A stretch of 64,000 bases of DNA. Origin: Halomonas ventosae. Lineage in GTDB: Bacteria; Pseudomonadota; Gammaproteobacteria; Pseudomonadales; Halomonadaceae. Shown here in pieces: positions 7,123 to 9,144 of the stretch (positions are counted from its first letter, which is position 1; each line of letters begins with the position of its first letter). A program made the position numbers and the translations under genes. The notes under the pieces are model-generated. The model was not told the origin of the DNA, did no database searches, and saw only the letters and a program-made list of their open reading frames with translations. The DNA lies in NCBI RefSeq assembly GCF_004363555.1, contig NZ_SNZJ01000007.1:62001-126000 (forward strand). The letters are read 5' to 3'.

Positions 7123-7146
7123 GGCCGGCGGTCCTGCCCCATCGAG

Positions 7147-7171
7147 AACGGCGCCTGCGGGCGCCGTTTTT
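7147..7171 (+). terminator. Rho-independent terminator of oadGAB
   Basis: AACGGCGCC at 7147-7155 pairs perfectly with GGCGCCGTT at 7160-7168 around the tetraloop TGCG and runs into TTTTT. It lies 25 bases after the oadB stop. Confidence 0.9.
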
Positions 7172-7203
7172 GATGGTGGTGGCCGGGGAGCAGGATAGGG
7201 CGC

Positions 7204-7824
7204 TCAGTCGTCCGGGAGCAGGGCCAGGCGGCCGCGCAGGCGGGTCTCCAGCGCGCTGAGGTCGGCCGGCACGTCGCTGGGCCAGCCCACCGTGAGCACC
7301 ACCCCGTCGGCGCCGTAGTCGGCCTGCGCGACCGGCACCTCCTGCTCGGCCAGCCAGGCCCGGGCCTCGGCCTCGCCGGCGAAGTCGACCCGCAGGCGCA
7401 GCGGGGTGCGCTCGACCACCGTGCGGCGCGGCAGGGCCTCCAGGCCTTCGGCGACGGCGCGGGAGTAGGCGCGCGCCAGGCCGCCGGTGCCGAGCTTGGT
7501 GCCGCCGAAGTAGCGGGTGACCACGCAGCCCACCTGGCCGAGGCCGGCGCCCTCCAGCACCTGGAACATGGGGCGCCCGGCGGTGCCGCCGGGCTCGCCG
7601 TCGTCGGAGAAGCCGATGGCGGTCTGCTCGCCGGGCGGGCCGGCGATGAAGGCGCTGCAGTGGTGGCTGGCGCCGGGGTGGGTGCGGCGCGCCTCGGCCA
7701 GCAACGCCTCGAAGGCGGCGCTGTCCGGCGCATGGCAGAGCCAGGTGATGAAGCGGCTCTTCTCCACCTCCAGTTCGCTCTCCTGCCAGCGTCCGGCGGG
7801 GACATCGGGGACGGCATAGCGCAT
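7204..7824 (-). CDS. YigZ/IMPACT family protein
   Basis: A 206-residue protein of the YigZ (UPF0029/IMPACT) family. Family members are linked to translation (homologues of eukaryotic IMPACT, regulator of GCN2), but the bacterial role is not settled. It shows EVEKSRFITWL, ASHHCSAFIAG, the signature FSDDGEPGGTAGRPMFQVLE and VVTRYFGGTKLGTGGLARAYS, with the usual C-terminal ferredoxin-like domain. Its ATG shares an A with the TGA of the upstream S24 peptidase gene (TGATG at 7822-7826), so the two are translationally coupled and probably SOS-controlled from the box at 8320. Confidence 0.88.
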   Translation of the reverse strand: MRYAVPDVPAGRWQESELEVEKSRFITWLCHAPDSAAFEALLAEARRTHPGASHHCSAFIAGPPGEQTAIGFSDDGEPGGTAGRPMFQVLEGAGLGQVGCVVTRYFGGTKLGTGGLARAYSRAVAEGLEALPRRTVVERTPLRLRVDFAGEAEARAWLAEQEVPVAQADYGADGVVLTVGWPSDVPADLSALETRLRGRLALLPDD

Positions 7825-8294
7825 CAGGCGGCCAGCTCCGCCTGGCGCACCACGCCCATCACCAGGCCGATCACCTGGATATCGTCGTTGCGCAGGTAGA
7901 TGGGCGCCATGCGCTCGTTGGCCGGCTGCAGGCGCACGCCGGACTTCTCGATGTAGAGCTTCTTCAGGGTGACCTCCTGGTCGTTGATCATCACCACCGC
8001 GGTCTCGCCGTTCTCGGCGCTCTCCCGGCGCTCGATGATGATCACATCCCCGTCGAAGATGTTGCAATCGACCATGGAGTCGCCGCGCACCCGCAGGGCA
8101 TAGGTATTGCGGCGCACCATCCGCGTGGGCACCTGGATGCTGCCGGCCTCGGGACAGGCCTCGATGGGCATGCCCGCCGAGACGCGACCGAGCAGCGGGA
8201 TCTCGGTCAGGTCGTCCGCTTCGATGGCCGCCCAGGACCGGGCCAGCGGGAGGTTGGGGCGGCGTTCCAGGTACTGCGGTGTGACGTTGGGCAT
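7824..8294 (-). CDS. LexA/UmuD-like S24 self-cleaving peptidase without a DNA-binding domain
   Basis: A 156-residue protein that carries only the LexA C-terminal catalytic fold. The Ala-Gly cleavage site is in VSAGMPIEA (Ala40-Gly41), the nucleophile Ser is in RGDSMVD (about residue 73) and the general-base Lys follows in EVTLKKLY. The roughly 35 residues before the cleavage site show no winged helix-turn-helix, so it resembles UmuD rather than LexA, although UmuD cleaves at Cys-Gly. No umuC/dinB polymerase is adjacent; the partner is instead a YigZ gene. A perfect-ended SOS box 26 bases upstream indicates damage-induced expression. It could be a UmuD-type polymerase cofactor or a regulator of RecA-type responses; the function is open. 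Confidence 0.8.
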   Translation of the reverse strand: MPNVTPQYLERRPNLPLARSWAAIEADDLTEIPLLGRVSAGMPIEACPEAGSIQVPTRMVRRNTYALRVRGDSMVDCNIFDGDVIIIERRESAENGETAVVMINDQEVTLKKLYIEKSGVRLQPANERMAPIYLRNDDIQVIGLVMGVVRQAELAA

Positions 8295-8319
8295 GCGATG
8301 TCTCCCCTGTCGTCGAAAC

Positions 8320-8335
8320 CTGTCGATACATACAG
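8320..8335 (-). promoter_or_regulatory. SOS box (LexA operator)
   Basis: CTGTCGATACATACAG fits the gammaproteobacterial LexA operator CTGT-N8-ACAG. It lies 26 bases upstream of the ATG of the S24 peptidase gene, a position where LexA would block that promoter. On the minus strand the box overlaps the -10-like TATGTA. ccmA starts 165 bases away in the other direction. Confidence 0.85.
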
Positions 8336-8499
8336 TGTTTCACGAGCATAGCAGCGGGCCCGGATCTGGCAAGGGCTGGCGGTCCACGCAAGGCTTGACC
8401 CAGGGCAAGTGCGACCGGCTGACGCAGACGGCGCGACTGGTAGCCAGGGCCCTTTCCGTGTAGAGTTCCGGGCGAAATTACCCATGCCGGGAGAGTGCC

Positions 8500-9144
8500 T
8501 TGAGCCTGCGTCTGCAAGCCCGAAAGCTGGCCTGTGAGCGGGACGATCGCTGGCTGTTCCGGGACCTTGACCTGGACATCCATGCCGGCGAGATCGTGCG
8601 TGTGGAGGGTCCCAACGGCAGTGGCAAGACCACCCTGCTGAAGATCCTTTCCGGGCAGCTGGCCGACTTCCAGGGCGAGCTCTACTGGAACGACCATCCC
8701 ATGCGGCGCACGCGCCAGGACTTCCTGGCCAACCTGCTCTACCTGGGCCATGCGCCGGGGGTCAAGGCGGCGCTGACGCCGCTGGAGAACCTGGCCTGGT
8801 ACCAGGCCCTGGCGGGCGAGCCCGACGACGAGGCCGCGCGCTTCAAGGCCCTGGCGGCGGTGGGGCTCGCCGGTTTCGAGGACCTGCCCGCCGGCCAGCT
8901 CTCCGCCGGCCAGCAGCGCCGGGTGGCCCTGGCCCGGCTGGAGCTGATCCCGCGTCCGCTCTGGGTGCTCGACGAGCCTTTCACCGCCATCGACCGCGAC
9001 GGCGTGGCGGCCCTCGAGGGCCGCCTGGCGGCCCATGCCCGGCGCGGCGGTTGCGTGCTGGTCACCACCCACCACGAGCTGGCCGATTCTCCGGCACTGC
9101 GGCGCATCCGGCTGGGGCAGGGGGGTGACGATGCCGCACTCTGA
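8500..9144 (+). CDS. ccmA: Cytochrome c maturation ABC transporter ATPase CcmA
   Basis: A 214-residue ATPase of the CcmABCD complex, whose ATP hydrolysis releases haem-loaded CcmE from CcmC/D. Walker A GPNGSGKTT is near residue 38, the ABC signature is LSAGQQRRVALARL, and Walker B is LWVLDEPF followed by the H-loop TTHHE. The start is TTG at 8500, preceded by GGGAGAG; the ATG at 8484 is out of frame. First gene of a nine-gene ccm operon with overlapping or closely spaced frames. Confidence 0.94.
   Translation: MSLRLQARKLACERDDRWLFRDLDLDIHAGEIVRVEGPNGSGKTTLLKILSGQLADFQGELYWNDHPMRRTRQDFLANLLYLGHAPGVKAALTPLENLAWYQALAGEPDDEAARFKALAAVGLAGFEDLPAGQLSAGQQRRVALARLELIPRPLWVLDEPFTAIDRDGVAALEGRLAAHARRGGCVLVTTHHELADSPALRRIRLGQGGDDAAL

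Follow-up and report, generated by a model that had tools for sequence, protein, structure and literature searches.

A LexA/UmuD-type S24 protein without a DNA-binding domain, coupled to yigZ behind a predicted SOS box in Halomonas and relatives

The analyzed stretch of DNA, called the window in the following, comprises 64,000 nucleotides (nt) of Halomonas ventosae (contig NZ_SNZJ01000007.1, positions 62,001 to 126,000). It carries a two-gene operon on the minus strand (window 7204-8294), in which a gene for an S24 peptidase is followed by yigZ. The S24 protein is a separate type: it has no DNA-binding domain and lies on a branch apart from both LexA and UmuD. The existence of the operon and of its predicted SOS box is confirmed in Halomonas and many of its relatives, and the conserved upstream sequence supports LexA-type control of the operon in Halomonas and near relatives. 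We give about an even chance to the reading that LexA represses the operon as part of the SOS response and that its S24 protein works as a UmuD-like switch, with the trimmed core binding a partner other than UmuC. The features of the operon are:

7204..7824, minus strand: yigZ (IMPACT/UPF0029 family), 206 residues; profile matches, related structures 1vi7 (E. coli YigZ) and 2cve
7822..7826, minus strand: TGATG, in which the S24 stop codon shares one base with the yigZ start codon; sequence
7824..8294, minus strand: S24 peptidase without DNA-binding domain, 156 residues; profile matches, structure model, Foldseek
7962..7964, minus strand: codon of the catalytic Lys111; residue conserved in the loci compared
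8076..8078, minus strand: codon of the catalytic Ser73; residue conserved in the loci compared
8172..8177, minus strand: codons of the predicted cleavage site Ala40-Gly41; residues conserved in the loci compared
8302..8307, minus strand: GGGGAG, probable ribosome-binding site of the S24 gene; by reading, with comparable purine runs in the alignment of genus g1
8320..8335, minus strand: SOS box CTGTATGTATCGACAG, predicted LexA operator; motif match and conservation
8345..8350, minus strand: TATGCT, -10 hexamer preceded by TG; promoter scan and g1 alignment
8367..8372, minus strand: TTGCCA, -35 hexamer with a 16-nt spacer; promoter scan and, where whole, g1 alignment

The comparisons cover a set of 80 named Halomonadaceae loci, 79 of them with the full 120 nt upstream, a family survey of 151 genomes with 90 S24 loci read, an order survey of 293 genomes and a class survey of 369 genomes. 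Codes stand for genera (g), genomes (G) and loci (L); g1 is the window's own genus, and f15 and f148 are other families.

The Peptidase_S24 profile matches residues 33-146 of the S24 protein with 104.9 bits, and Ala40-Gly41, Ser73 and Lys111, which the initial annotation had pointed out, are all present. All three features occur in 80/80 named loci. Among the 90 surveyed loci the Ala-Gly site and the serine were each found in 76 (76/76 outside genus g11, 0/14 within it) and the lysine in 86 (76/76 outside g11). A conserved N-terminal arm precedes the cleavage site in the S24 branch, with the exception of one genus. In a structure model of the window protein (mean predicted local distance difference test score, pLDDT, 84.5) this arm is fairly ordered (residues 1-10 and 11-20 average 77 and 78), and the stretch past the cleavage site is disordered (43-48). 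The best Foldseek matches of the model are LexA and then, lower, UmuD', including RecA-bound LexA and UmuD. The ratio of nonsynonymous to synonymous substitution rates (dN/dS), calculated for 15 pairs, five of them from g11, with a purpose-written Nei-Gojobori script, is 0-0.092 for the core in the ten pairs from other genera.

The absence of a winged helix is confirmed as well. The lexA model TIGR00498 matches the protein at profile positions 56-202 of 203 only, with 115.0 bits against a cut-off of 110.95. As the cut-off is passed without the head positions, this model would misname the window protein. A hidden N-terminal helix-turn-helix, which the initial annotation had named as the finding that would overturn its reading, is ruled out. 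The stop-to-stop frame of the S24 gene is 171 residues long and leaves only 15 codons upstream of the start; thus an in-frame helix-turn-helix cannot have been overlooked. Moreover, PF01726, the LexA DNA-binding domain, has a single match in the window genome, and this lies in a separate lexA. An origin from phages or plasmids is not supported: the 122 phage records and 2915 plasmid records matched at E 1e-5 were all below 60% identity.

The window genome has four S24-domain matches. Three are LexA with its winged helix beside DinB, UmuD with UmuC, and the S24 protein of the operon; the fourth, a long frame, is presumably a signal peptidase. Hence the description of the operon protein as UmuD-like without UmuC is right for the locus and wrong for the genome, in which the proposed check for polymerases located both umuC, with its own umuD, and dinB, beside lexA. 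In a tree of 74 S24 domains all 49 proteins without DNA-binding domain fall on one side of a branch with support 100/99. They form a clade separate from LexA and UmuD, with f15 next to Halomonadaceae. The tree is unrooted; row L291, labelled UmuD, falls with LexA, and the long UmuD and g11 branches are flagged.

This S24 branch recurs across Gammaproteobacteria and extends beyond its association with yigZ. It persists without adjacent yigZ in f15, the class loci read, Terasakiispira, G078 and G091. Among the order-level loci read outside the family, the form without DNA-binding domain was seen in f15 only, and the eight others encode full LexA. In the 11 f15 loci read, yigZ was absent within about 1.5 kb, and it was absent from two f15 genomes searched whole. 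In each of the 11, a site with at most one mismatch to the box is present (shuffle mean 0.58); L127 has two mismatches when the search started farther upstream. Outside the order, 28 class genomes gave an S24 match at E 7.3e-41 or better. The 18 of these loci that were read encode proteins of 153-156 residues, none with a winged helix; in L270 and L274 a stop codon is flagged in the matched stretch. Twenty class loci were inspected with flanks of up to 5 kb, and yigZ is missing from all of them. A general conserved partner across the class was rejected, as clustering of these 20 loci gave none. Five class loci (L294, L295, L296, L298, L306) have a divergent gene, SCO1-like by reading, beside the S24 gene, and in two f148 genomes (L299, L303) the S24 gene without DNA-binding domain lies divergent beside a full lexA.

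Both PF01726 and a Y-family polymerase are found in 148 of the 151 family genomes. The former count rules out that the S24 protein stands in for LexA where the box is missing. With the E-values of DinB (8.6e-48) and UmuC (2.5e-34) of the window genome as yardsticks, ten S24-matched genomes (G006, G017, G028, G036, G067, G071, G091, G127, G138, G146) have a single Y-family match, which is of DinB grade. Thus UmuC is not an obligatory partner of the S24 protein. Eight g3 genomes have LexA and no S24 orthologue was seen in them; the 9.4e-16 match in G002 may be its LexA.

The CTGT-N8-ACAG box noticed upstream of the S24 gene is present and conserved; its distance from the start codon is 25 bases and not 26, as had been stated. 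A lone match to this pattern proves nothing, since the counts are at chance level both in the window (one seen against 0.50 expected, with 38 of 100 shuffles reaching one) and genome-wide (18 sites, and 16 with the reversed pattern as control). The box is significant because it is conserved: an exact box lies within 120 nt upstream in 51 of 79 named loci, compared with 3 of 5215 other windows of the same loci (shuffle mean 0.108). A chance match, left open by the window and genome counts, is ruled out by this conservation. The count by genus covers 87 of the 90 surveyed loci; the three dropped, which have no YigZ match, have the box in two cases and none in one. An exact box was found in 24/24 g1 loci read, in 7/7 of g12, 11/14 of g11, 2/3 of g13 and 2/4 of g5, and in every locus read of g6, g9 and g21 (two each) and of g14, g15 and g23 (one each). 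In an alignment of the g1 upstream regions, counted by eye, TATGCT or TATGAT precedes the box in 18 of 24 loci; in L040 and L057 the box lies farther upstream, beyond the 75 nt aligned. The -35 hexamer is whole in L054, L056, L066, L094 and L095 and is truncated by the 75-nt alignment in most g1 loci. Sites fitting the motif also precede umuDC and a frame read as recA in the window genome. Its lexA has no exact box, only a one-mismatch site, and the best site has one mismatch in each of the nine lexA loci read (this one and eight of g4, g7, g8 and g20). A 362-residue frame at L104, radical-SAM-like by reading, is preceded at a distance of 15 bases by a strong match to the SOS box, TACTGTTATTTTATACAGTA (G000:C10:9526-9541).

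The second gene of the operon was correctly recognized as a YigZ/IMPACT gene that overlaps the first by TGATG, which would couple their translation. Its product carries UPF0029 (111.8 bits, cut-off 27) and DUF1949, and it stays below both NCBIfam YigZ cut-offs (150.9 vs 167.95 and 158.9 vs 298). The overlap at 7822-7826 corresponds to a gap of -1, which recurs in most related loci. A survey of co-occurrence in Halomonadaceae, as had been proposed, supports a stable coupling of the S24 gene to yigZ in the family: yigZ adjoins the S24 gene in 79/80 named loci, with gaps of -4 to 64 nt and mostly the one-base overlap, and in 87/90 surveyed loci. The exception among the named loci is Terasakiispira, where the two genes are apart. 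In G022 and G078 yigZ is located elsewhere in the genome. G091 retains the S24 gene and only a short remnant of the yigZ start, which runs on into a dus gene. In 13 of the 15 pairs yigZ has a higher dN than the S24 core.

A same-strand dus gene was found in 19 of 232 loci scanned, a total made of overlapping sets with unequal flanks and two genomes counted twice. It follows S24-yigZ in Modicisalibacter, Kushneria, Larsenimonas, g2, one g11 locus and one Halomonas locus, the S24 gene in f15 g120 and G091, and yigZ without S24 in G018. The loci include L118, L120, L028, L042, L060, L093, L096, L164, L177, L179, L193, L198, L199, L202, L206 and L252; the distance is about 1.9 kb in L164, L177, L198 and L202 and less than 360 nt in the other dus loci. 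The f15 dus gene encodes a tRNA dihydrouridine synthase by its Pfam Dus match (224 bits); the product is most similar to DusC, whose model it matches with 298.7 bits, short of the cut-off of 395. This neighbor weakly favors a translation-linked context.

On the other side of the operon, a cytochrome-c maturation cluster (ccm-like, by reading) runs divergently from window position 8500 onward on the plus strand. Such genes, again by reading, are found in 69/80 named loci; of the ten reference loci displayed, most have them in divergent orientation. Between yigZ and a convergent gene that reads as oadB-like, a GC-rich hairpin with a short T run lies at 7146-7172; it is not among the terminators reported by a terminator scan of the window.

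Genus g11 keeps the S24 gene without the peptidase residues, and the core is under purifying selection in all five pairs measured. The serine is replaced in 14/14 loci read (12 Arg, 1 Ala, 1 Asp) and the Ala-Gly site is absent, too; the region ahead of the core is divergent and apparently of low complexity, and the arm is lost. Nevertheless, yigZ adjoins the S24 gene in all 14 loci. Core dN/dS in four of the five pairs is 0.018, 0.122, 0.034 and 0.128 (the fifth is given below), and the N-terminal part ranges from 0.196 to 0.645. With serine, cleavage site and arm missing, the trimmed form seems to have become genetically fixed in g11, an argument that the core and not the act of cleavage would carry the function.

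The operon could work as follows. Upon DNA damage LexA would be cleaved and the operon expressed. RecA filaments would stimulate self-cleavage of the S24 protein at Ala40-Gly41, so that the 40-residue arm is shed as in UmuD. The trimmed dimeric core might then act by binding another protein; instead of UmuC this could be DinB, the replicase or a translation factor. YigZ would be produced in step with the S24 protein through translational coupling. A UmuD-like mechanism of this kind is the most likely one; its first step, synthesis upon damage, is based on conserved sequence, and the later steps we infer.

Several observations weigh against this reading. In nine genus codes (g2, g4, g7, g8, g10, g16, g17, g18 and g20) the S24-yigZ pair lacks an exact box (0/26 loci); g10 and g18 among them have one-mismatch sites. 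In the class loci no exact box was found (0/18; one locus has a site with one mismatch, shuffle mean 0.945), and thus the ancestral role of the protein need not be an SOS output. As the class loci read have neither exact box nor yigZ, both are lineage-specific additions. The idea of the pair as a general damage output is not supported, because the S24 gene occurs without adjacent yigZ in several groups and the pair is boxless in the nine genus codes. In G089 (88% complete, S24 present) the single Y-family match is UmuC-like (2.0e-33). The g11 pair L091/L093 is only moderately constrained (core dN/dS 0.347), and the structure model of the g11 protein matches LexA folds poorly (best E 0.042, template-modelling score about 0.26), so that retention of the fold in g11 has to be argued from the sequence. 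Perhaps the poor superposition is explained by the small alignment of 11 sequences on which the model rests. Alternatively, the g11 protein may have acquired a new role.

A possible, if rather unlikely, alternative is that the S24 protein acts as a tuner of the SOS response: equivalent to a LexA that has lost its head, it would pair with LexA or compete for RecA filaments, and it would thereby shape the strength or the ending of induction. This would fit with an S24 core that scores above the lexA cut-off, with the LexA DNA-binding domain in 148/151 family genomes and with the neighborhood of S24 gene and lexA in the two f148 genomes. It would also fit with G024, which retains yigZ and in which neither the LexA DNA-binding domain nor a Y-family polymerase nor an S24 match was found. 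However, the S24 clade is far from LexA on the tree, g11 has kept the gene without cleavage site and serine, and the eight g3 genomes have LexA and, with the reservation made for G002, no S24 orthologue.

It is improbable that yigZ is a passenger, i. e. a housekeeping gene that landed behind the S24 promoter, with box and S24 protein being real. The boxless pairs of the nine genus codes, the loss of yigZ next to a retained S24 gene in G091, the separate genes of Terasakiispira and the higher dN of yigZ could be read in this way, yet the one-base overlap is maintained across many genera. Slightly less probable still is a link from damage to translation, in which the S24 protein regulates or partners YigZ and damage alters translation or tRNA handling. 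The overlap or close adjacency in 79/80 named loci points in this direction, as does the same-strand dus gene downstream of S24 in 18 loci (16 genomes), including f15 g120, where yigZ is missing from the locus. But adjacency does not equal interaction, and dus is about 1.9 kb away in 4 of these 18 loci. The S24 gene also does without yigZ nearby in the 20 class loci and without any yigZ in the two f15 genomes searched whole, and yigZ is present in 10 of 11 family genomes that have no S24 match at 1e-15. An artefact, i. e. a decayed lexA or an overlooked start codon, is next to impossible and we regard it as refuted: the NCBIfam lexA model does accept the protein, but only 15 codons lie upstream, family orthologues are similar in length, and the gene is under purifying selection.

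If the operon is indeed a LexA-repressed unit with a UmuD-like switch, a large family of halophiles possesses an SOS output without DNA-binding role and without UmuC, and a conserved gammaproteobacterial gene whose product passes for LexA with the standard model encodes another protein. With its lost serine, genus g11 offers a natural test of whether cleavage or the trimmed product is what counts. YigZ would gain a testable context; an excerpt of PMC8743551 describes E. coli yigZ as a gene of unknown function, and according to the excerpt of a correction notice (PMC12171958) an E. coli strain needs YigZ to colonize the gut. A still bolder proposal, which we consider unlikely, is that a third LexA/UmuD branch across Gammaproteobacteria is a cleavage-activated adaptor. 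In Halomonadaceae it would be wired to SOS and to yigZ and dusC, both associated with translation, as a damage-to-translation checkpoint, and one genus would make the active form directly and dispense with the peptidase.

In the open-access literature, with subscription papers and preprints outside the search, we found no description of the S24-yigZ pair or of the S24 branch; nothing was found there on Chromohalobacter together with LexA. Among known systems, YigZ/IMPACT proteins (PDB 1vi7, 2cve) share UPF0029 and DUF1949 with the window YigZ, which differs in its SOS-boxed operon and in scoring below the two NCBIfam cut-offs. UmuDAb of Acinetobacter, as far as excerpts of PMC8565304 and PMC11332147 tell, is likewise an S24 protein outside the canonical LexA and UmuD roles in the damage response. 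However, Acinetobacter has no LexA, and the window protein represents the reverse case. With LexA (TIGR00498; PDB 1jhh, 3k2z, 8gms) the S24 protein has in common the S24 domain, the Ala-Gly site and the Ser-Lys dyad, and it is about 35% identical to the LexA of its own genome over residues 32-141; it differs in the missing winged-helix domain, the separate clade and the presence of a canonical LexA in the same genome. UmuD and UmuD' (NF007621; PDB 1umu, 8gmt) are similar: they, too, are short S24 proteins that lack a DNA-binding domain, carry a short arm ahead of the cleavage site and stand behind an SOS box. In contrast to UmuD, the window protein reaches 70.1 bits where the UmuD cut-off is 110, belongs to a separate clade and has no umuC beside its gene, umuC lying elsewhere with its own umuD; in ten genomes the S24 gene occurs with a DinB-like Y-family match only. 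Thus the protein falls outside both LexA and UmuD, and a UmuD-like way of working is the best analogy.
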